Source of the DNA: Mangrovimonas cancribranchiae | GTDB lineage: Bacteria; Bacteroidota; Bacteroidia; Flavobacteriales; Flavobacteriaceae | Reading direction: 5' to 3' | Assembly (NCBI RefSeq): GCF_037126245.1 | Contig: NZ_CP136925.1 | Location: forward strand, 2,496,001 to 2,560,000 | Length of the DNA: 64,000 nucleotides | In this document: positions 7,014-20,429 of the stretch, one piece after another | Position numbering within the stretch: position 1 is the stretch's first letter | Layout: the number at the start of each line of letters is the position of its first letter | Program-made: the position numbers and the translations under genes | Notes under the pieces: generated by a model | What the model saw: the letters and a program-made list of their open reading frames with translations, nothing else | What the model was told of the DNA's origin: nothing | Database searches by the model: none

Positions 7014-7595
7014 TCAACTTATATAATTCAAGAACAAAAACAGAAATAACCAAAGAAAATCAACAAAATGCCAGTAAGTTGTAGATAATTCTACCCCTAA
7101 TAAATTACTAGGCGAATACTTTTGTTTATAATGATTATAAATTACTACTAAAATTGATATTAGCCCAACAACAACGTGCAAGATGTGTACAAATGCTATA
7201 ATATACACAAAACTCATTGTTACATTACTAGTGGGACCAGTAAATGCATACCCTAAATCTATAATTTGTTTAAAGCCTATTAATTGACTCCAAATAAAAA
7301 CAATTCCTAAGAGAAGGGTTACCCATAATAACACTGTTGCTTGCGCGTTTTTATTATTCTTGATAGCACGTTTAGCTAACAAAAAGGTTATGCTACTTAT
7401 TACGATTAATATGGTGCTCGTTATAAAAGCTTGTGGTAAACTAAAATCGTTTAACCAATCTGGTCTAGAACTACTAACAATAACGGCACTTGTTAATCCT
7501 GCAAAAGACATGGTTAAAGAGATAATTCCAAACCATAACATCATTTTTTTGGCTCTGTTATTTTTTTCCTGGTCAGTTCCTTGTGTTAAATCCAT
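7014..7595 (-). CDS. Cytochrome c oxidase subunit III (short form)
   Basis: A 193-residue heme-copper oxidase subunit III with five transmembrane helices. It carries the family pattern near its end: HILHVVVGLISI and TYWHFVDFLWLFLFLFL. It is the second gene of the operon, overlapping the 3' end of ctaB by 10 bp, and is followed by a second, longer subunit III. Paired subunit III genes are common in Bacteroidota caa3 oxidase loci; one may correspond to the helices that other oxidases carry on a single longer polypeptide. Confidence 0.92.
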   Translation of the reverse strand: MDLTQGTDQEKNNRAKKMMLWFGIISLTMSFAGLTSAVIVSSSRPDWLNDFSLPQAFITSTILIVISSITFLLAKRAIKNNKNAQATVLLWVTLLLGIVFIWSQLIGFKQIIDLGYAFTGPTSNVTMSFVYIIAFVHILHVVVGLISILVVIYNHYKQKYSPSNLLGVELSTTYWHFVDFLWLFLFLFLNYIS

Positions 7596-8515
7596 AAATG
7601 TCTTAAAAATTTATCTGCAACATAAACAACTTGCAACAAGGTTATATACAAAACACTAGCTAACATTAGTTGTTTCGCTGCATGAGACGTCATATTCTTA
7701 AATAGCTTAAAGGCATAATAAATCATAACAAAACCTAACAATCCTACTACCACAGCTGCTATTGGCGACAAGTAAAGTTTGCCTGTAAAACCAAACACAG
7801 GAATTAAAGACATAATAACTGTCCAGATAGTATACATAATGGTTTGTACTGCGGTACCTCTATCTCGTTTTCCGGTTGGCATCATATAAAAGCCACCTTT
7901 TTTATAATCGTCGTACAAGAACCATCCAATAGCCCAAAAGTGTGGAAATTGCCAAAAAAACTGAATAGCAAATAAGGTTCCTGGTTCTATACCAAAATCG
8001 TTAGTAGCAGCTACCCAACCTAACATAAAAGGTATGGCTCCTGGAATAGCTCCTACAAAAACAGATAAAGGCGTTTTAGTTTTTAAAGGTGTATAAACAC
8101 TTGTATATAAAAAAATTGAAATCGCACCAAACATAGCTGTTTGTGGATTTATGGTATACAAAATACCTATTCCCAAAACAGTGAAAATAGCAGCTATTAA
8201 AAAGGCTGTATTTACCGACATTCTCCCCGCTGGAATAGGTCTGTTTTTAGTACGGTCCATTAAAGCATCTAAATCCTTTTCAATAATTTGATTAAAAGCA
8301 TTAGAAGCTCCTACCATAAAATACCCACCAAGAGCTAAGAAAATAAGTGTTTTTGCAGAGACAGTTTCGGCGCCAAGTAAGTATCCTGCAATTGAAGAAA
8401 ACACGACACTTAAAGACAACCCCATTTTGGTTATTTCTTTAAAGTCTGAAACGATACTATGTTGTTTTATTGAAGTTTCTATAACAGCCAAAGTTAATCT
8501 GTACTTAGTCGCCAA
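7586..8515 (-). CDS. ctaB: Protoheme IX farnesyltransferase (heme O synthase)
   Basis: About 309 residues. A UbiA-family membrane prenyltransferase that adds farnesyl to heme B to make heme O, the precursor of the heme A used by the neighbouring oxidase. The first Mg-diphosphate motif is N-x3-EKDLDALMDRTKNRP (N-x-x-x-D-x-x-x-D class), and the second conserved loop reads YDDYKKGGFYMMP; about nine membrane helices follow the pattern. No in-frame ATG precedes the catalytic core: the longest frame begins at TTG 8515, and another TTG at 8491 is further from the promoter and may be the real start. A strong promoter lies just upstream. Confidence 0.95.
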   Translation of the reverse strand: MATKYRLTLAVIETSIKQHSIVSDFKEITKMGLSLSVVFSSIAGYLLGAETVSAKTLIFLALGGYFMVGASNAFNQIIEKDLDALMDRTKNRPIPAGRMSVNTAFLIAAIFTVLGIGILYTINPQTAMFGAISIFLYTSVYTPLKTKTPLSVFVGAIPGAIPFMLGWVAATNDFGIEPGTLFAIQFFWQFPHFWAIGWFLYDDYKKGGFYMMPTGKRDRGTAVQTIMYTIWTVIMSLIPVFGFTGKLYLSPIAAVVVGLLGFVMIYYAFKLFKNMTSHAAKQLMLASVLYITLLQVVYVADKFLRHLWI

Positions 8516-8526
8516 AATAGCGACTG

Positions 8527-8557
8527 CAAAGATACTTTGAAAAGTTTATATTACAAA
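8527..8557 (-). promoter_or_regulatory. Promoter of the ctaB-cox operon
   Basis: On the minus strand this is TTTG, exactly 19 bp, then TATCTTTG, a full match to the Bacteroidota -33/-7 promoter. It overlaps the stop codon of the upstream remB-like gene. If transcription starts a few bases after the -7 box, the TTG at 8515 would have almost no leader, which favours the TTG at 8491 as the ctaB start. Confidence 0.7.
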
Positions 8558-10662
8558 TCGAAATACCAATTAAAAAGACTTGTTCTTAAACCAAGATTAA
8601 ACCAAACGGTGTTACTCTCGAAAGTTGTACTTGTTTGTGCATCAGGATTAAAATTTCTAAACGTTACATCGGCAAATAACTGTAGGTTTGATGACGGATT
8701 AACAACATACCCCGCTTGTAAATTTGCAAAAAGAGAGGTTGCTTTATTTCCTTGCCCTACTGTAATTCCGGTATCTGAAGGCCTGTCGTCATAACTTTGA
8801 AAAATATCGCCGCCATAACTATAATTATCGCTACCATCGTTAAAATCTAAACCTCGTTCGCCAAAAATAACTTTAGCATTAGCAAACCATCGTTTATAAT
8901 GGTAGCGCCCTATTAACACCACTTCGCTTAAATTTGCTCCCCATAAATGCGCCATAGATTGATTGGCATGCCCATAATTTAAAGCAATTGTGTTGTGCGA
9001 ATAGGTATACGGACGTATTCTATTATATTCGGCTTGCAGATATAGATTTTTAAGTTTGAAAGCATCGTAATATTTAACCCCTAATTGATAGCCGTATTTA
9101 TTTTTCCAACTCTTTTCCCCTCCAGTAACATCGCTTGTCGAAAATTCATCTAACACAAATTGACCATAAACATTTACCTTATCACTAATTTTATATTTAG
9201 CAGACATTCCTAAAATAGCGTTTCCAGCATCTTGCCCAGTTTCAAACTCGATAGCTCGGTAAAAGATAATAGGATTAATGTAATTAATATCGAACGAACG
9301 GTTTTCGGTTTTAGCCCAAATAACCGATTCGAAAAACCCTATATTAAGTCGCTTGGTTGCATTCCAACTTAAAAAATGAGTTGCCATATATTTACTTAAA
9401 TAGGCGCCATCATCATCTCTTACATCTGGTCTTACATCGCGCAACCACATCCATGTATTTGTGTATTTTATTTTCCAAAAATTAGTATTTAGCTTAAAGT
9501 ATGTTGATGGACTTGCAACATCACTTGTAAATAACGATCGATAACCATCGCCTATAAAGTTTTTACCATGTCCTAACTGCACGTTAAAAAACTTAGCTGG
9601 CGAATAAGACAAATAGGCTTCGGCCACAGGATAATCAAAACCACGATCTTTAAAGGCTTTGGCAATACCTCTTCCCGGGACAATTCCAGCTTCGTCTGCT
9701 GCTTTTATCAACGTTGCATATTGATTGTAGTATTGTGCAAAACGCCCTTGACTTTCGTAAACTGCCGTAAAAAAGTTAAACTTTTTCCCTAAACCTCCTT
9801 GTACATATATACCTCTTGTATTGTTATAGGTGGAACTAAAATCGGCTTCGGTATCTTTACCAACTTCAAAATCGAAAATAGGATCTACCGTAAACCAATA
9901 ATGTTTAGACTGGACTCTTACTAGATGTTCGTTCCATAATTTCCTTCCAAATAATGAAGATTTATCTTTAAGCAACGCCTCTTTTTCCGATTTAAAATCG
10001 TAATAATTAGCCACATCACTATACAATAATGGTTTAGATGCTGTGTGAGCATTTGTACCAACTAGGTTTACACTTTTATCAAATCTAGAGTAATAACTAT
10101 GTGTAAACGGAATATTTAACTCGCTTGTTAACTCTTTTTGCGTGTAAGGCACTAGTTTTAAACCTACACTATCGTACTCTGTTTTGGCGGCTTCTTCTAG
10201 AGCTGTTAACTCATTACTTTTTCCGTTTACGCTATCTACAGAAATACTCTTCGCAGATATGGTTTGGTCTTGTAATGGAATTTTAATCACAACCGAATAT
10301 TGCTTAAAAATAGGATTTCCATTATAAGTAGCGGGTTGTATTTTTGGTAATTTTGAAAATACGTTTTTAGTTTCTTCCTTTAACTCGTCGTAAATAGCAT
10401 CAACATAAATCACACGAAAAGCGCCTTCTTTATCAACTTCAAACAGAACGGCTACATTGCCTTTATAATCATCTTTTACAATATCTGGAACTTGAAATGT
10501 TTTAAAAATGTGACTAAAAATCTGGTTATCGAAACAGGTTTTAAAGTTTTCAACGGATTCATTTTCGCACTCTGGAAAGACTGGAGGTTTCTCATAAAAT
10601 TGGGATTGTGCTAATGAAGAAAAACCGCATAACATCAATAACAGAAGACCATATAATTTCAT
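8551..10662 (-). CDS. remB: RemB-like gliding protein with N-terminal TonB-like module
   Basis: A 703-residue exported protein: signal peptide (about 1-19), a TonB C-terminal-like domain (about 26-130, starting PPVFPECEN and ending VVIKIPL), a linker, then about 500 residues of alternating beta strands ending in ...FNWYFDL with a terminal aromatic, as in outer-membrane beta-barrels. Gene order sprA-gcvH-vanZ-tonB-remB matches what I recall of Flavobacterium johnsoniae, where RemB is involved in gliding; I base the name on that and on size and topology, not on a database search. Residues Cys32 and Cys43 match a cysteine pair in both neighbouring TonB proteins. It has its own T-tract/TATCTTTC promoter-like region upstream. 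Confidence 0.7.
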   Translation of the reverse strand: MKLYGLLLLMLCGFSSLAQSQFYEKPPVFPECENESVENFKTCFDNQIFSHIFKTFQVPDIVKDDYKGNVAVLFEVDKEGAFRVIYVDAIYDELKEETKNVFSKLPKIQPATYNGNPIFKQYSVVIKIPLQDQTISAKSISVDSVNGKSNELTALEEAAKTEYDSVGLKLVPYTQKELTSELNIPFTHSYYSRFDKSVNLVGTNAHTASKPLLYSDVANYYDFKSEKEALLKDKSSLFGRKLWNEHLVRVQSKHYWFTVDPIFDFEVGKDTEADFSSTYNNTRGIYVQGGLGKKFNFFTAVYESQGRFAQYYNQYATLIKAADEAGIVPGRGIAKAFKDRGFDYPVAEAYLSYSPAKFFNVQLGHGKNFIGDGYRSLFTSDVASPSTYFKLNTNFWKIKYTNTWMWLRDVRPDVRDDDGAYLSKYMATHFLSWNATKRLNIGFFESVIWAKTENRSFDINYINPIIFYRAIEFETGQDAGNAILGMSAKYKISDKVNVYGQFVLDEFSTSDVTGGEKSWKNKYGYQLGVKYYDAFKLKNLYLQAEYNRIRPYTYSHNTIALNYGHANQSMAHLWGANLSEVVLIGRYHYKRWFANAKVIFGERGLDFNDGSDNYSYGGDIFQSYDDRPSDTGITVGQGNKATSLFANLQAGYVVNPSSNLQLFADVTFRNFNPDAQTSTTFESNTVWFNLGLRTSLFNWYFDL

Positions 10663-10718
10663 ATGAAAAAGATAGATTTATTCGACTTGAAAGATACTAT
10701 TTTTTTAATAATGACTAC

Positions 10719-10748
10719 AAAAAAAAGCCACCGCATCGCAACAGTGAC
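10719..10748 (-). terminator. Terminator after second tonB gene
   Basis: On the minus strand GTCACTG and CGGTGGC pair (with G-T wobbles) across an 8-base loop, followed by eight T residues. It lies 25 bp beyond the stop codon of the TonB-like gene. The end of the T tract supplies a TTTG that, 21 bp on, is followed by TATCTTTC, so it may double as the -33 box for the remB-like gene. Confidence 0.75.
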
Positions 10749-10772
10749 TTTTAAAAATTAAAAAATATCATA

Positions 10773-11525
10773 TTAGTTTTGAACCTGAAACATAATGGGC
10801 AAACCATAAACAACATCTACTGCTTTTTTATCTTGCTTTCCTGGTTGCATATTAGGTAGTTTACCAATAACACGTTTTGCCTCATTGTCTAGCTGTTTAT
10901 AAGGTGATCGCGCTTTAATATCGGTTACCTCGCCATTTTTATCTACTTTAAACATTACATTAATACGTTGCAACCCACTTAACCCTAAATCTGAAGCGAT
11001 ATCGGTATCGAATTTTCTTTTAATATGTTTTGAGATTTTTTCTGACATGCATTTAATGCGCGCTTTATTAGAAGTTTCATCTTCGCAACCAGGAAAAACA
11101 GGTACTTGCTCAACAGCCATAATACTTACTGGAGGTAAATCGTCCGGTTTTTTCTCTACTACAATACTTCCTGGATCGGCAACAGGCTCGTTAGTTACTG
11201 GCTCTGTTACAATATCTGGTGTTACTTCACCTTCATCGTCATCATCAGAAATTTTGGGGTCTTTAAAAACTGTTGGTTTTTTCTTCTTTTCCTTAACCTC
11301 TTCTTGATATATTTTTACCTGCTTGTCGAATACATAAATATCGTCTTCTTCTAAGTTTGTTAATACTTGTGGCGCATAGTCTTTAGATTCAAACTTCATT
11401 TCTAATAACCCATAGGTTATCAGCAAACAGATAATTAACCCAACTTGAAAGTACAAGGTTGAGTTTTTTTGAATAGATAGTCCTTCTTTCTTTAAACTTC
11501 TTTGGTTTTTCTTTGGTGTTCTCAT
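10773..11525 (-). CDS. TonB-like energy transducer (paralogue 2)
   Basis: A 250-residue protein with a basic cytoplasmic tail, one membrane helix (about 24-42), a charged periplasmic linker rich in Asp, Glu, Lys and Pro (about 60-135), and a TonB C-terminal domain (about 141-250: VPVFPGCED ... QRINVMFKVDKNGEV ... GLPIMFQV). Such proteins couple the inner-membrane proton-motive force to outer-membrane receptors. It differs from paralogue 1 in having a weaker Pro-rich linker. Cys147 and Cys159 match Cys137 and Cys149 of paralogue 1. No exbB or exbD genes are in the window. It is bracketed by terminators, so it seems to be its own transcription unit. Confidence 0.88.
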   Translation of the reverse strand: MRTPKKNQRSLKKEGLSIQKNSTLYFQVGLIICLLITYGLLEMKFESKDYAPQVLTNLEEDDIYVFDKQVKIYQEEVKEKKKKPTVFKDPKISDDDDEGEVTPDIVTEPVTNEPVADPGSIVVEKKPDDLPPVSIMAVEQVPVFPGCEDETSNKARIKCMSEKISKHIKRKFDTDIASDLGLSGLQRINVMFKVDKNGEVTDIKARSPYKQLDNEAKRVIGKLPNMQPGKQDKKAVDVVYGLPIMFQVQN

Positions 11526-11583
11526 AATAATGATGTTTAAATGTTAATATTTTCATAATTCACAATAAACGTACCAAACAAAA

Positions 11584-11615
11584 AATCCCGACACTTTTAA
11601 AAAAGTATCGGGATT
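11584..11615 (-). terminator. Terminator after first tonB gene
   Basis: A near-perfect inverted repeat AATCCCGATACTTTT / AAAAGTGTCGGGATT with one mismatch, followed on the minus strand by six T residues. It ends the transcript of the TonB gene at 11640-12362, 24 bp after the stop codon. Confidence 0.88.
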
Positions 11616-11639
11616 AAAATATTTTAAAAACTATTTCTT

Positions 11640-12362
11640 TTAGTCTTGTACTTGGAATAAAATTGGCAGTGAGTAAGGTACTGTTACAGCTTTACCACGT
11701 TGCATTCCTGGTTTCATTTTTGGTAAAGATTTCACAACACTTTCCGCTTCTTGTTTTAATTTCGGGTGTGGTGCTCTTGCTCTTACGCCAACAATGTTAC
11801 CTGTTTTATCAATTTTAAACATTACAATAATACGTTGTCTTCCTGAAAGGCCTAAGTCACTTGCTAAATCTGTATCAAACTTTCTTACAACAAACTTTTG
11901 TATTCTTTCGGACATACATTTTTTCTTAGCGTTGTTTCCTTTCTCGTTTTCACATCCCGGGAAAACTGGTACATTTTCAATTACAGCAAAAGGAACTTCT
12001 ACATCTTCTTCTACTTCTTCTACTTCAATTTCTTCAACCTCAACAATTTCTTCTTCTTGACTTGTTTCGGTAGACTCGATAACAGTTTCTTCCACTTCTT
12101 CCTCATCTTCAACAACTTCAATTACTTCTGGCGCTGCTGGTGGCGGTGGCGGTGGCGGTGGTGTCTGGATCTGTTCTGTAATTGGAATTTCTTCTTCCAA
12201 TTCTTCTTCCATATCCAATTTACCAATATCTATTACTTCTTTATCGTAGGTTTTGTAGTTAATCGCATAGTTTGTTAAGAATAACATTAATGCTAAACCT
12301 ACGGCAAAATAAAGGGAACTGTTACGTCCTACGTTTGCTTTCGAATTTTTCTTAGGTTCCAT
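11640..12362 (-). CDS. TonB-like energy transducer (paralogue 1)
   Basis: A 240-residue TonB-type protein: membrane helix at about 16-33, a run of eight prolines at 68-75 followed by a long Glu/Val-rich acidic linker (about 80-125) and a TonB C-terminal domain (131-240: VPVFPGCEN ... RKFDTDLASDLGLSG ... SLPILFQV). The Pro-rich and acidic segments are typical periplasm-spanning linkers. Its C-terminal domain is closely related to paralogue 2 and recognisably to the start of the RemB-like protein. It lies downstream of gcvH-vanZ with 67 bp between, and ends in a strong terminator. Confidence 0.9.
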   Translation of the reverse strand: MEPKKNSKANVGRNSSLYFAVGLALMLFLTNYAINYKTYDKEVIDIGKLDMEEELEEEIPITEQIQTPPPPPPPPAAPEVIEVVEDEEEVEETVIESTETSQEEEIVEVEEIEVEEVEEDVEVPFAVIENVPVFPGCENEKGNNAKKKCMSERIQKFVVRKFDTDLASDLGLSGRQRIIVMFKIDKTGNIVGVRARAPHPKLKQEAESVVKSLPKMKPGMQRGKAVTVPYSLPILFQVQD

Positions 12363-13241: not shown

Positions 13242-16200
13242 CTAATTCCCAAAATTATATCGTAATGTAATTCCTGCTCGTATACTTGTTTGTGGAAAAG
13301 CTGTTGAAATAGCATATTCTGAAAACGCATAATCAAAATAGAAAATACCTGTTAAGTTTTTACTAAACGAATAATCTGCTGTGAATTTAGCCGACCACAT
13401 GGTTTGCCCGGAGGTAACTTGATTATTATCTAAATCTAGATACCTTATAATGGTTTTGTTATCTCTTAATGAGATATCGGCTTTCATGTTTAAATCGCTA
13501 ACAATCATTCTTCTTGGCCCTGCTAGTTTTGATTTTATGCGAACATCTTTAACCCTATACCCTAATCCTAGAATGTATTCCATACCTTGAATTTCGGTCA
13601 TTAAATTGTTGTCAAAACTTAGCGACAACATTCTGTCTTTCTTTAACTCGGCTAGTATTTTTATGGAGTTTTTCATTTCCATATCAATTCGTACTAACGG
13701 ACTAAACATTTCGGTTAAACTAATATTACTATAAAGGGTTTTATTTCTAAAGTTTCCACCTTGATCTAGTTCTTCTGGGTTTTGATCGTTATAGTTTAAG
13801 TTTGTTCTAAATTGATTTATTGTGTAGTTGGAACGATAGCCGTGTGTTAATGAGAAGCGTTTAAAACGTTCTTTAAACCATTTCATCTTCATTAACCCTG
13901 TGTACTTAATATCCCAGTTAGGAATTGGCATATCTCTAAAAGCTCCTAAACTTATTTTCCCGGCATCTTTTCCTGTGTATGCTGATAGAAAAGAGGGTAA
14001 TAAAACCGATTGATTATTCTTACCAAAACCAACAGGATATCCTTCGGCGTCTCTTGGGAAGCTTGAACTACCATAGTGTTTTTCTGCTAATCTATTGGCG
14101 ATTTCAATTCTGTTATTTCTAAACGTTTCAAAAGCTTCAGATTCGTTTTCATCGCTTTTACCAAATGCCGTTGCAATTAACATTGTAGAAATATTAAAGT
14201 TTCCAAAGGTATTTGGGGTAAGCGATTGGTACTCTAAATCGCCGTTAATATTATCTACACGATAATTTTCGGTATAATTCTCGGCCATTATTCGATTTCC
14301 TACTAAATCGATTTTTAAATCATCAAACGGTTCTAAATTCGCTGAAAAATCTAGTTGTTTATTACGGTTAATGGTGTATTGCTCATTAAATTCTGGATAC
14401 ATCGTTAACCAACCGTTTCTTGCTGCTAATTGCCTTATATCTCTCTGGCTACCAAAAGTAAATCCTACTGTAGGTTTTAATGTTCCTATAAATCCAGGTG
14501 TTCTTAAATACCCTGGTAAATAGGTTCCGTTTGTTTGCGCATAATTTACTTGTACACGTTTTAAACTTGTAAGAAGTCCTATACCAAAGTTTAACAGTCC
14601 TTGACCTCCTTTTTTAGATTTAACCTCATCTTCTTTCTGGCCATCAACCTTTGCTGGTGGTGCGCCGCCAGGTCGCCTTCTTATGGTATTCCTACTAGAC
14701 GTACGTTTCTTTTTTAGGCCTATATAATTATAGAACCTATTCATATTTAAAGAGGTGTTTATATTATGTTGATTGGCGTTAGAAATGGAGTTTCCTAAGT
14801 TATAGGATTGCCCATTTAAATCAATATCTCCTAATAAATCGGAACCTTTTTGCCACTGGAATTCTCCGCTATAAGAATATGTGGCATCAATAAAACTAAA
14901 GGTTGGTATTTTATTTATTGGTATATCGTAATTTATACCTAATTGTTGGTATTGCCTGTTAGGGTCTCCAAAATCGAAAAAGCCATCCCAAACATCTAAT
15001 GATGGGTCTTGCTCGCCATTAATAATATCATTTTTAAAATAGTTTCTAACAATATTATTATTTGATGCTGTAAAATTAACTTGAAGCGACTTGGTAAGAT
15101 TATAATTTATGGTGTATTGATAATCGAAAGTATAGTTTCTTCTATAAAATTCTTCTAAACCTATATTACCACCAGTTAAATCGACATCTCTAAATTTTTG
15201 TTTATTAAAGCTTCTATTAATATCTGTATTCACCGTAAAGCTTGAAGGCAACGGATTAATATTAAAGTCTTTTAAGATTTTCCAATATTCGCCATTAAAC
15301 AAGGAATCGTTTTTCTTGAATGGTTCTATAGAAACAGGCTCGAAATTATACGCATAATTAACGCCAGCTCTTACGGTTTGGTCTATGGAGTTTTCTATTT
15401 CAAAATCGCGATGTTTCACCTTGTTATAAGAATAATTAAAAGTTAGGTTTTCAACATCGTAAAAATGTGGTTTAGAGTCGCCTGTTTTTATTTTTCTAAC
15501 CCCAATAAAATTAATACTTCGGCGTTTGGTATAATTTTCTGATTGTTCTCGAATTCTATCTTTTTCGGTATCGGTATCGGCTGCATCTATACGCGATTCT
15601 AACGTTAAATCTTTATAAAACTGATCGTATTTTGGCGTGATAAGCTCCTCTCCTTGGCCATAATTAAATGGTATTTGTAAGCCCCATTTTTTAGGAAATA
15701 ATTGCCCAACATTCACATTAGTAACCACGTCGTATTGCACAACATCTTCTCGGCTTCTTTCGTTTGGACCTTGCTCTAGAGAGCCAAATCCGGTTGTACT
15801 TTTTCTACCTGTGGCGCTTACGTTGGCAAAATCTGCAATATTTGAATCTAGACTTACCACAGCAGCCCAACCACCTTCGTTATCCATATCGGATAAACGG
15901 AGCTCATTAAACCATAATTTGGCACATTTATCTGTTGTTGATCGGTTTTTAACACCTACCATTAATGTTCTAATATCGCCAAAGTTCGGATTTCCTTTTA
16001 TTCCTATTCTATGAAATCCATTTCTATTTGATGATGCTGGTAAATCGGCATATTCGGCTACTGGATTACTACTTAATGAGCCGCCATTAACATCATAAAA
16101 TATAGGATCGGGATTACTTAAAGCTCCATTACTTATGGCTTCTGATTTAATGTCTTGCAGTAAAGATAATGCCAAATTTATTTCGTTTTCTTCTGGCCAT

Positions 16201-19200
16201 AGTGCTTCTCTTGTGGTGCCTATACTTACCTTTAAAGGTACTTCTATTTGGTAATAGTTTTGGGTTAAATCGTTACCCATACGTATAAAACCTACTAAGT
16301 CATCATCGTTTAAGCCAGAAAGCTCACCTTCTTCGGCATGCATAAACATCCTTAGTTTTTTATATTGACGCATGTCTACGTTTATGTTTTTGAATACCGC
16401 TCTTGCATCGTGCGATTCTAAATCACAAACATTAACCACTAAAGATTGTTCGTTTTGACGTACTACTGTGTTGTTATTAAATAATTCTTCTGGATCGACT
16501 CCTGGAGGCGATTGGTAACTTCCTTCATTTTCTATGGTACTTACAACACCAACACTAAACTCGGTAGTATCATCGTCAGGATCGCCTTCATCTTCATCTA
16601 GTGTTTGGGTGTATCGTCTCCAATCGCTACGTACTAAATCTAAAGTACCAAAACGGAATACTGTGGTTTCAGAGAATTCTTTTAAAAACATTCTCACAAA
16701 ACGAATAGATCTTAAATCACTTATACCTCCTATAGCTTCTGTATATTCTGAAACAGGTATTCTAAATTGAATCCATCTTGGTGTTGCTGTTTGCCCATTA
16801 GGTAAATTTCTTATTTGCCCTTCCTTAATATCGGCAATTAATGGGTTGTTGGTGTTTAATGTAGCTGGAGTTAACTCTACTTCATATTGATAGTAACTAT
16901 CTATGGTATTCATGGTATTATCCCTATTTACATCTTCAACATCAGGCTGGGTTGTATTACCTCGGTTAGTATCTGAAAAAGTATCAGGTGAATTTCCATC
17001 TACCCCATTATATTGTTTATAGCGTTCAAAGATATCTCCACTAGTGTTTAAGAAATACGTATAATTATCTCTTGCGGGGTCATTTAAACCGGCATAATCT
17101 GTGAAAATTTGTTGCTCTTCATTATCACTATACCCATCGTATCCAACATCTTGATTTGTTCGTTCCTGTCCTGTAGTATCGAAAGCATAAATTAAAGACT
17201 GGTTTTGAGGATAAACCGTTTCCCATGATGGCGATGTTGGTAATACACCTATCACATTACCATCTTGAGGCAAACCATTTTCGTATAATTTCCTCCCGTC
17301 TTTTACAATATCTTCTGAAATGTTTCCTAAGTTAAAAACTAGTTTCCCTCCTGTGTTTGCTTGGTTTTCCTGAAAAGGATCTTGTAACCAAAACTCAATA
17401 TATTCTACATTGGCTTGTTCAAAATCGGTAGATGTTAAGGCTCTCGTAATTCCTGCCCAACTATCTTCTGGAGCTGTTAATGTATTATTTGGTATATCAA
17501 CATTGGTTGTTTGAAAGTTATACGGCCCACGTTCTTCGGGATAATAAACTAAATCCAAAGTATTAATTACCGCACTTTGCCCTTGTGCTATATCTTGTTG
17601 TGGGAATAATTCTTCGCTAAATACACGACTTGTAAATAGGTTTGAAATATCGTCATCTGATATATCGTCGGGCTTTCTATTTCCATAAAAAATAGGATCG
17701 ATATTATACCAGTTTAACAACGCTCTATTATACCCTTGTTCAATGCCATTGGCATCGTCGTTATTATTATTAATACCTTTTGGTCTACTTGATAAAAACC
17801 AAGATTGTGGCGACTTTAAATCGATGGCATTTTGCGAGCCTTCAAAATCATCAACATAAGATGTTGCTTCGCCATTAAAATCGGTTCCTTTTGGCGCACC
17901 CGGTAATAAATAAGCAAATTCTCCTCTTACTGAAAGATTTGATGGTGCATCGGTATCTATATTTGGCAATTTATTTACCATTCTAGTTAAAAATGGCACT
18001 TCGGTTGAATAGTTCCCATTTAAACCAAAGATGTGATTATTTATGGGCTCTTGACTATAATTTGCCTTTTGTGTAATAGGTCTTTCGTTTAAGTTTAACC
18101 AAGTAGCGCCTAACACAAAGTTTTCATTAAACTTATGCTCTACATTAATTCCTGTAAAACGCTTGGTTTGCTGACCGAAAACTGCATTATTTTCTGTAGA
18201 AACCTGTATTGGTGTGTTGGATGCTTTTAGGGCTTCATCTAAAATTTGAACTGTTCCTAACTGATAATTCACCGTGTAATCTACACCTTCTACTAACTTT
18301 CGACCTCCTGCAGTAACCGTTACAGAACCTCTTGGAACATTGAACGCCCCGATAGGAATACCATCGCCGCCAGAGGATTTATAACGTCCTTTTAATAAGA
18401 ATTTATTTTTTTCGGCTTCTTCTAATGCTGCTGTTTTGGTTTCCTTATAAAGGATATCGTAAACATATTTGGTTTGATTATCGTTATAAGAAGCATCGTT
18501 GTTATAATCTTCACTTGCAGAAATGGACAGTTTATCAAATAAATACTCTCCAAAAGGCTCTACTGTTGTAAAAATAATTTTTCCGTTTTGCGGTAAAACT
18601 GTTAATCCAGGAACAAAATCGAAGAACCCATCACCATTAGCCTGCGGGTCGTTATTAAAGTTTAAGCGATCTAAGTGAAACAGCTTTAACAACGTTGTTT
18701 CTTGTATTGCATTCCCATTAAAGGTAGGGAAAGGCGTGCCATCAACGGGTGTTATAAAGTTTAATGGTGATGCTTCGTTATAAAAGACATTCAGCTTAAA
18801 ATCATCTTGACTTAGTTGATATGCGCCTGTATCGTAAATGTTTTTCATCATTAAATCCCAAATAGGCTGATCGACATTGGTTATAGGACTTTTAAGCATT
18901 TTTAGCACCAAACTATTATTGGTTACCATAGTAACAGCAGAGGTATCATCAACTGTGGTAGCATCTACACCATCGTTAGCAAATTCTCCTACTTGGTAAA
19001 CTTGCCCACCAACAGTATATTGATAGGCTACGGCTAAAATCTCGTCGTTGGTTAATCTTTGATTTAAAGAGATATATCCTAATTGTGGGTTTAAAGTATA
19101 CTCTTGACCTTCTCGTAACTTTCTTGCATTTTCTAATTTACCATAGTCGGAACCTTCATTAACTACCGATGACAACGCACCAAACCCTTGCTGTGCTGTA

Positions 19201-20429
19201 GCTATATCGCGAATGGCATCGGTTAATACTGAACCTGTACCAATGGCAGTAGGATCATAATCATTGTTTCCGTTATCTGGAAAAGCGTTTGGTCCAGCAT
19301 TGATAAATCCTCCTGGAATAGATTGTAGATATAAATTATTGGCATTTGGATCTGGGTTAGACTCCCCTAAATCCTGTAAGGCTACAATATTTCTAACATT
19401 TTCAGTAGAATTATTTCTATTGGTTATCCAAACTTCAATTCTTGTAATTTGAATATTGTTATTAATGTAGGGATAGTTTTCTAAGGCTCTATCGTAATTA
19501 TCTCTAAAATAATGGCCTAAGAAAAAGTGACGATTTTCATCGTAATCTCTAGCATAAAACTCAAAATCTTCTACAGTTCCACCGCCTTGAGCGACTACGG
19601 TTCTAGTATCTGATCTTTGCTCAGAAAACACTCCTGTAATGGTTGTTTTTCCAAATTGCAGTTGTGTTTTAACCCCAAATAAACTTTGCGCTCCTGAAAT
19701 AAGTGAACTATTAAGCGGCATGTTTACGTTACCGACTTCTATTTTTTGAATGATATCATCTTCTGTTGGGGTGTATTCTAATTTAATTAAGTTTTGAAAA
19801 TCGAAAGTAGACTCGGTATCGTAATTTGCTGTTACTTGTAGCCTTGTTCCTACTTTACCCAAAAGACTTAAACTAATTCTTTGATCAAAATCAAACGAAA
19901 AATTCCTTCTATTTCTAGGTGAAAATGTAGGGTTATCTTGTTTGGCAAATAATACGCCTAAATCTATTTCAACAGAACCTTGAGGCACCACATTAATGGT
20001 ATTACCCCCAAAAATGGTTTCGAAAAAACCTGATCTTACATAAAATTCTGGTAATAAGTTTTTTTGTTCTTCTTCAGCGCCTTCTTTTTTACCATCGTAA
20101 GCATCAATTTTTTGTTTGTAATATTCTTTAAGGCTTTCTTTTAATATAAAATCTTGATACTCTTCTGGTGTAAGGATAATGGGGTAATTAATATTAAAAT
20201 CACCCACCGATTCGGTATAAATATATCTATCTGTTAAAGGGTCGTAAGTATATTTAGACTCTATACTATTGGGGTTTGGCATGGTCATTTCCCCTAATGA
20301 ATACCCTGTTTTTGTACTATCTTGTGCTGTTGGGTTTTGTTGCGCTATGGCAAATAAACTGCAAAAGAAAGCCAAACTAAATACAATATGCCGCCTTACT
20401 GATTGATTAGTATAGTTAGTTGTCCTCAA
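13242..20429 (-). CDS. sprA: SprA, T9SS outer-membrane translocon / cell-surface protein
   Basis: A 2395-residue protein, the giant size of SprA/Sov. A signal peptide (about residues 14-29, ending FAIAQQ) is followed by thousands of bases coding alternating beta strands; SprA forms a very large outer-membrane barrel through which type IX secretion substrates leave the cell, and is required for gliding in Flavobacterium. Characteristic stretches include repeated aromatic barrel strands, a Gly/Asn/Asp-rich central part, and a C-terminal barrel strand ending ITLRYNFGN. No ATG is available at the front: the frame starts at TTG 20429, 5 bp after the ruvA stop, suggesting coupling with ruvA. The other T9SS genes are not in this window. 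Confidence 0.93.
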   Translation of the reverse strand: MRTTNYTNQSVRRHIVFSLAFFCSLFAIAQQNPTAQDSTKTGYSLGEMTMPNPNSIESKYTYDPLTDRYIYTESVGDFNINYPIILTPEEYQDFILKESLKEYYKQKIDAYDGKKEGAEEEQKNLLPEFYVRSGFFETIFGGNTINVVPQGSVEIDLGVLFAKQDNPTFSPRNRRNFSFDFDQRISLSLLGKVGTRLQVTANYDTESTFDFQNLIKLEYTPTEDDIIQKIEVGNVNMPLNSSLISGAQSLFGVKTQLQFGKTTITGVFSEQRSDTRTVVAQGGGTVEDFEFYARDYDENRHFFLGHYFRDNYDRALENYPYINNNIQITRIEVWITNRNNSTENVRNIVALQDLGESNPDPNANNLYLQSIPGGFINAGPNAFPDNGNNDYDPTAIGTGSVLTDAIRDIATAQQGFGALSSVVNEGSDYGKLENARKLREGQEYTLNPQLGYISLNQRLTNDEILAVAYQYTVGGQVYQVGEFANDGVDATTVDDTSAVTMVTNNSLVLKMLKSPITNVDQPIWDLMMKNIYDTGAYQLSQDDFKLNVFYNEASPLNFITPVDGTPFPTFNGNAIQETTLLKLFHLDRLNFNNDPQANGDGFFDFVPGLTVLPQNGKIIFTTVEPFGEYLFDKLSISASEDYNNDASYNDNQTKYVYDILYKETKTAALEEAEKNKFLLKGRYKSSGGDGIPIGAFNVPRGSVTVTAGGRKLVEGVDYTVNYQLGTVQILDEALKASNTPIQVSTENNAVFGQQTKRFTGINVEHKFNENFVLGATWLNLNERPITQKANYSQEPINNHIFGLNGNYSTEVPFLTRMVNKLPNIDTDAPSNLSVRGEFAYLLPGAPKGTDFNGEATSYVDDFEGSQNAIDLKSPQSWFLSSRPKGINNNNDDANGIEQGYNRALLNWYNIDPIFYGNRKPDDISDDDISNLFTSRVFSEELFPQQDIAQGQSAVINTLDLVYYPEERGPYNFQTTNVDIPNNTLTAPEDSWAGITRALTSTDFEQANVEYIEFWLQDPFQENQANTGGKLVFNLGNISEDIVKDGRKLYENGLPQDGNVIGVLPTSPSWETVYPQNQSLIYAFDTTGQERTNQDVGYDGYSDNEEQQIFTDYAGLNDPARDNYTYFLNTSGDIFERYKQYNGVDGNSPDTFSDTNRGNTTQPDVEDVNRDNTMNTIDSYYQYEVELTPATLNTNNPLIADIKEGQIRNLPNGQTATPRWIQFRIPVSEYTEAIGGISDLRSIRFVRMFLKEFSETTVFRFGTLDLVRSDWRRYTQTLDEDEGDPDDDTTEFSVGVVSTIENEGSYQSPPGVDPEELFNNNTVVRQNEQSLVVNVCDLESHDARAVFKNINVDMRQYKKLRMFMHAEEGELSGLNDDDLVGFIRMGNDLTQNYYQIEVPLKVSIGTTREALWPEENEINLALSLLQDIKSEAISNGALSNPDPIFYDVNGGSLSSNPVAEYADLPASSNRNGFHRIGIKGNPNFGDIRTLMVGVKNRSTTDKCAKLWFNELRLSDMDNEGGWAAVVSLDSNIADFANVSATGRKSTTGFGSLEQGPNERSREDVVQYDVVTNVNVGQLFPKKWGLQIPFNYGQGEELITPKYDQFYKDLTLESRIDAADTDTEKDRIREQSENYTKRRSINFIGVRKIKTGDSKPHFYDVENLTFNYSYNKVKHRDFEIENSIDQTVRAGVNYAYNFEPVSIEPFKKNDSLFNGEYWKILKDFNINPLPSSFTVNTDINRSFNKQKFRDVDLTGGNIGLEEFYRRNYTFDYQYTINYNLTKSLQVNFTASNNNIVRNYFKNDIINGEQDPSLDVWDGFFDFGDPNRQYQQLGINYDIPINKIPTFSFIDATYSYSGEFQWQKGSDLLGDIDLNGQSYNLGNSISNANQHNINTSLNMNRFYNYIGLKKKRTSSRNTIRRRPGGAPPAKVDGQKEDEVKSKKGGQGLLNFGIGLLTSLKRVQVNYAQTNGTYLPGYLRTPGFIGTLKPTVGFTFGSQRDIRQLAARNGWLTMYPEFNEQYTINRNKQLDFSANLEPFDDLKIDLVGNRIMAENYTENYRVDNINGDLEYQSLTPNTFGNFNISTMLIATAFGKSDENESEAFETFRNNRIEIANRLAEKHYGSSSFPRDAEGYPVGFGKNNQSVLLPSFLSAYTGKDAGKISLGAFRDMPIPNWDIKYTGLMKMKWFKERFKRFSLTHGYRSNYTINQFRTNLNYNDQNPEELDQGGNFRNKTLYSNISLTEMFSPLVRIDMEMKNSIKILAELKKDRMLSLSFDNNLMTEIQGMEYILGLGYRVKDVRIKSKLAGPRRMIVSDLNMKADISLRDNKTIIRYLDLDNNQVTSGQTMWSAKFTADYSFSKNLTGIFYFDYAFSEYAISTAFPQTSIRAGITLRYNFGN

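Follow-up and report, generated by a model that had tools for sequence, protein, structure and literature searches.

The RemB-like protein of Mangrovimonas cancribranchiae carries an N-terminal module homologous to the C-terminal domain of TonB, and within the family Flavobacteriaceae RemB is strictly co-inherited with the exosortase XrtF. The architecture is real and well conserved, and it is an unusual arrangement of a known domain; in the limited literature searched, no putative outer-membrane barrel bearing a TonB C-terminal module was found. The co-inheritance is the stronger lead, for it makes RemB a candidate partner of XrtF, which is needed for biofilm formation and surface colonisation (PMC10936215). 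The results suggest that surface attachment is a better place to look for the role of RemB than T9SS or gliding proper.

The window is the whole stretch of DNA analysed, 64,000 nt of contig NZ_CP136925.1 (positions 2,496,001 to 2,560,000, forward strand), and feature coordinates are positions in it.

Layout and identity of the RemB-like protein

The gene (8551..10662, minus strand) encodes 703 aa. A signal peptide is followed directly by the TonB_C-like module (residues 24-133; 10264..10593, minus strand), recognised by BLASTP, profile-profile comparison and Pfam, then by a variable linker (about residues 134-178) and a conserved region of 525 residues. This last region (residues 178-703; 8554..10131, minus strand) is the sole part present in the RemBs of other families, and it ends in an aromatic residue, NWYFD[FL], as outer-membrane barrels do. 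By its signal peptide and aromatic C-terminus, the protein is a putative outer-membrane beta-barrel, and the module would be exposed to the periplasm, provided that the barrel is oriented in the usual way.

For the barrel part, neither Pfam nor the solved structures contain a match. For the whole protein, no Pfam match besides TonB_C is obtained at E ≤ 1, hence no plug or receptor domain such as TonB-dependent transporters have. RemB is ruled out as T9SS cargo, because the C-terminal T9SS sorting domain gave no NCBIfam match at E ≤ 1 in the window's RemB. The inner-membrane anchor and proline-rich arm of TonB energy transducers are absent from the sequence, and therefore the RemB module is itself unable to transmit force from the inner membrane. 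No RemB was found on plasmids.

In Flavobacterium johnsoniae, sprA is Fjoh_1653 and remB is Fjoh_1657 (PMC4572689). The locus in the window matches the position of remB, four genes from sprA (13242..20429, minus strand; T9SS translocon) and between sprA/gcvH and cyoE (7586..8515, minus strand), both of which belong to the conserved gene order; in the window two tonB genes occupy the place of deoC. The link of the window's RemB, and of the genus g54 (Flavobacterium-like), to Fjoh_1657 is one of gene order only.

Homology of the module with TonB C-termini

Homology links the N-terminal 110 residues of RemB with the C-terminal domain of each neighbouring TonB protein, namely TonB1 (240 aa, 11640..12362, minus strand; module at residues 127-240) and TonB2 (250 aa, 10773..11525, minus strand; module at residues 137-250). 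By BLASTP, RemB residues 24-132 match TonB1 with E = 2e-14 (32% identity over 113 residues) and residues 24-114 match TonB2 with E = 9e-12 (36% over 95), while the two TonBs are 60% identical to each other over 113. Profile-profile comparison (hhalign) of 65 RemB modules with 56 TonB C-termini gives a probability of 99.2% and an E-value of 3.5e-19 over 109 columns. The pairwise and profile-profile comparisons together reject a chance resemblance. The first-pass annotation, which had placed one shared module in these three genes, with the same positions and strand, is thus borne out, and the RemB N-terminus, which might have come from an unrelated family, proves to be of the TonB_C type.

The Pfam profile TonB_C (PF03544) scores the window's RemB at 15-19 bits, under the cut-off of 24.6, and TonB1 and TonB2 above it (35.6 and 35.5 bits). 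It matches 53 of the 65 RemB modules at E < 0.01, with a best value of 1.8e-7. Relatives among solved structures are none or weak for the RemB module and the TonB domain: the TonB profile reaches TonB (5lw8, 6sly) and HasB (2m2k) at E of about 0.13.

Each module contains two cysteines, at residues 32/43 in RemB (10534..10569, minus strand), 137/149 in TonB1 and 147/159 in TonB2, the very positions noted earlier. Both are invariant in all 65 RemB and all 56 TonB modules. Among 405 distinct modules, both are present in 400, neither in 4 and just one in 1, a count biased toward Cys-bearing modules, since the profile was built from these. The pair is thus retained or lost jointly in 404 of 405 modules and behaves like a disulfide, which agrees with the earlier suggestion of such a bond. 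All carriers of the module share this trait, and it does not single out a pairing between RemB and TonB.

History of the module

In an order-wide search, every full-length RemB of the Flavobacteriaceae (family f1) matches from position 1-10, whereas the RemBs of seven other families (f2, f4, f7, f8, f11, f13 and f14) match only from about position 155-230. The module-less frames of other families have about 530-590 aa, apart from one of 847 aa in f11. In f11 genomes such as G046 a second, shorter RemB paralogue of about 460-490 aa is also seen (G046:C2:1164649-1165833), which matches only the C-terminal half of the barrel.

In the tree of the barrel part (43 sequences with the module and 25 without), one change explains the presence of the module (branch support SH-aLRT 100), and the module-less family f2 is sister to the module clade. 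A single gain, at the base of the Flavobacteriaceae, placed the module between the signal peptide and the barrel. Taken jointly, the homology to TonB_C and this single gain are virtually certain.

A survey of 199 genomes (198 genera) turned up a single family member with a module-less RemB, G369. In the tree this RemB lies below every RemB that bears the module (support 85/86); the gain may therefore fall just after the split of G369, which possibly preserves the earlier state. No relative of sprA, tonB or cyoE is seen within the 19.5 kb that surround this remB (G369:C12, L285 9386-11011).

In a tree of 124 modules, the RemB modules form one clade (SH-aLRT 96) outside a clade of TonB1, TonB2 and BlaR1-type modules (98); the tree is based on 112 columns and its deep forks are weak. 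An origin of the RemB module as a recent copy of the adjacent tonB domain is rejected by this tree and by the deoC gene that stands between in early branches. In pairs from genus g54, dN/dS is 0.04-0.12 for the module and 0.02-0.05 for the barrel; judged by these values, the g54 module is under purifying selection. In most pairs, the rate of evolution is higher for the module than for the barrel.

Gene order around remB

The conserved order is sprA-gcvH-vanZ-tonB-(deoC)-remB-cyoE. The outgroup G043 has sprA, gcvH, vanZ, tonB, deoC, sugar genes, a module-less remB and cyoE, and the early family branches G035 and G066 have one or more tonB genes, deoC, one more gene and then remB with the module. 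G100 and G225 show tonB-tonB-deoC-remB. In 26 genomes, including that of the window, deoC is gone and tonB abuts remB, and tonB directly adjoins remB in most of a separate set of 80 loci. By parsimony, the three consecutive module genes are mostly secondary, produced by the loss of deoC and of the sugar genes that once stood between tonB and remB. Where a family member lacks remB, tonB usually adjoins cyoE or is separated from it by a single gene. For G182 and G210, the module was cut off in the ORF pick of the gene-order comparison and is present by the order-wide search.

Of the 20 RemB-bearing genomes of genus g54, 18 lack a tonB next to remB, and they still have the module. When 12 RemB-bearing g54 genomes were searched with the TonB profile, a full-length relative of TonB size was found only in G100 and G225. 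For the other ten, RemB is the best match in six, and the rest have partial matches or a larger protein above RemB. Pairing with these tonB paralogues is therefore not what keeps the module, although it may still interact with some ordinary TonB.

The gaps between the three genes contain terminator-like hairpins, one of 14 pairs with a T-rich tail between tonB1 and tonB2 (11584..11615, minus strand) and one of 12 pairs with a T tail between tonB2 and remB (10723..10752, minus strand), suggesting that tonB1, tonB2 and remB may be separate transcription units. They come from a consensus scan that found 4 hairpins in the region against 2.9 expected.

Co-inheritance of RemB and XrtF

XrtF was identified with TIGR04128 in the survey of 199 genomes, and genomes at least 90% complete with at most 5% contamination were considered good. 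RemB and XrtF are both present in 117 genomes, both absent in 77 and discordant in five, all five being 75-88% complete. The association has a Fisher p of 9e-49, uncorrected for kinship. Among the 165 good Flavobacteriaceae genomes, 110 have RemB and 110 have XrtF, with no mismatch, although the two genes are not neighbours in this family. Some family genomes (e.g. G022:C1:748675, G385:C10:31456) show a second, distant XrtF-like exosortase of about 53-73 bits, below the family cut-off.

On a species tree of 69 family genomes, built on SprA, GcvH, CyoE, COX3 and CtaE, 51 genomes have both genes, 18 have neither and none is discordant. The pattern corresponds to six independent joint losses (sign test, p = 0.031). 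Controls reveal no wider loss of surface machinery: the Wza-type export protein (PF02563) is found in 51 of 52 genomes, GldJ in all 52, those without RemB included, and SprA in all 18 RemB-less Flavobacteriaceae genomes tested. The last result also rejects RemB as a core component of T9SS.

Outside the family the link is loose: f5 has XrtF without RemB, and f8 and f11 have RemB without XrtF. Module-less remB sits among genes for nucleotide sugars, glycosyltransferases and acetyltransferases, and in 14 genomes of f7 it directly adjoins xrtF.

In F. johnsoniae, deletion of xrtF or of Fjoh_1449 abolishes biofilm-type structures and lowers colonisation, whereas among nine mutants tested colony spreading is lost in that of sprA only, and thus not in the xrtF deletion (PMC10936215). 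The substrates of the exosortase are unknown (PMC10936215).

Possible roles of the module

The overall reading that we favour, by a modest measure, is that RemB is an XrtF-linked surface or adhesion barrel in which the TonB-like module serves as a motor-less docking domain in the periplasm. The TonB_C-type module is the product of the single insertion, early in the Flavobacteriaceae, described above. The barrel would belong to a surface polysaccharide or adhesion pathway dependent on XrtF, a membership to which co-inheritance and gene neighbourhood point, and an XrtF-linked function of RemB is by itself rather likely. The disulfide-braced fold of the module may offer an edge strand in the periplasm, through which the barrel would recruit, or be held to, a periplasmic or inner-membrane partner of the same pathway. 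This docking by strand pairing is put forward tentatively, as a conjecture more apt to fail than to hold. Several points weigh against the docking-barrel reading: co-inheritance does not show direct interaction, it breaks outside the family (f5, f8, f11), the six joint losses give a p of only 0.031, and no relation of the barrel to Wzi or a solved structure is detectable.

The first-pass annotation had proposed another purpose for the module, in which it would pair with, swap strands with or compete with the C-termini of the adjacent TonB1 and TonB2, so that RemB is coupled to their motor in the service of T9SS or gliding. TonB C-terminal domains can dimerise in isolation, the module is homologous to both neighbours, and tonB lies directly beside remB in the 26 genomes and most of the 80 loci mentioned above. 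However, the adjacency fails in the 18 g54 genomes, in G100, G225, G035 and G066 deoC (in the latter two a further gene as well) separates tonB from the module-bearing remB, and the module persists, with the low dN/dS already given, in ten of 12 RemB-bearing g54 genomes that have no full-length relative of TonB size. Moreover, the module does not derive from the neighbouring tonB domains, and hairpins lie between the genes. As to T9SS or gliding, genomes without RemB retain SprA and GldJ, and it is with XrtF that RemB is co-inherited. This coupling now appears very improbable.

Alternatively, the module may bind peptidoglycan and tether the barrel to the wall, which would help the surface structure borne by the barrel to withstand shear. 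Binding of peptidoglycan has been reported for the C-terminal domain of E. coli TonB. The tether would suit the XrtF-dependent trait, which is surface attachment (PMC10936215), but no peptidoglycan-binding signature and no Pfam family besides TonB_C was found in the module, and we regard this role as unlikely. The module may also be a private accessory of the barrel that serves RemB in gating, assembly or self-association and has no partner from outside. Its vertical inheritance in almost every intact RemB of the family, irrespective of the neighbours, would allow this. Against this, the RemBs of other families exist without the module, it evolves faster than the barrel in most pairs, and its connection through a variable linker is not that of an integral plug; such a role seems quite unlikely. 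In a bolder reading, RemB and XrtF might be parts of one unrecognised surface pathway, in which a product processed by XrtF is exported through the RemB barrel or displayed on it, and the module attaches the barrel either to a partner in the periplasm or to a Ton-type motor distinct from the neighbouring TonBs. We consider this scheme speculative, and the odds to be against it.

Comparison with known systems

The protein and RemB of F. johnsoniae (Fjoh_1657) occupy the same locus; in Flavobacterium-like genomes it lies at four genes from sprA and precedes cyoE. One paper lists Fjoh_1657 as adhesin-like and T9SS-secreted (PMC4572689); the window's protein, in contrast, lacks a C-terminal T9SS signal and resembles an outer-membrane barrel.

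Module-less RemB resembles the barrels of polysaccharide pathways (Wzi, AlgE, EpsX) in its place in polysaccharide loci. It differs from the Wzi family, the one of the three covered by sequence comparison, in having no sequence relation to it: hhalign gives a probability of 2.2% for the RemB barrel, and the Wzi capsule-assembly profile (PF14052) has no match in the window's genome. A Wzi-like barrel was rejected accordingly.

TonB-dependent transporters with STN or CarboxypepD-like N-terminal domains likewise combine a barrel with a periplasmic N-terminal extension. In RemB, however, the extension is TonB_C itself, and plug and receptor domains are absent by Pfam.

The same module occurs outside TonB in proteins that are not barrels, namely BlaR1-like M56 proteins with 1-3 modules, lipoproteins of 158 aa and solo proteins of 124-143 aa; its reuse is thus not unique to RemB. 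A conserved set consists of BlaI, the BlaR1-like M56 protein, a TPR protein and the 158-aa lipoprotein with a divergent module (G000:C1:209000-216000, L149, the set on which Pfam was run; also L142, L145-L147 and L153-L155). The solo proteins are secreted and made of a signal peptide and one TonB_C module (L144 6766-7563, L141 7414-7845); one lies beside thymidylate synthase in L144, and two stand in tandem in G010. In G039 (L138 7431-9154), adjoining proteins of 278 and 288 aa have two tandem modules each.

The closest likeness in the domain itself is to the TonB C-terminal domain (PF03544) in its PVFPxCE two-cysteine subtype of Flavobacteriia, with which the RemB module shares the profile, the cysteine pair and the LP..P ending. 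The difference lies in its setting, since in RemB the domain is N-terminal, behind a signal peptide, and free of the transmembrane anchor and proline-rich arm.
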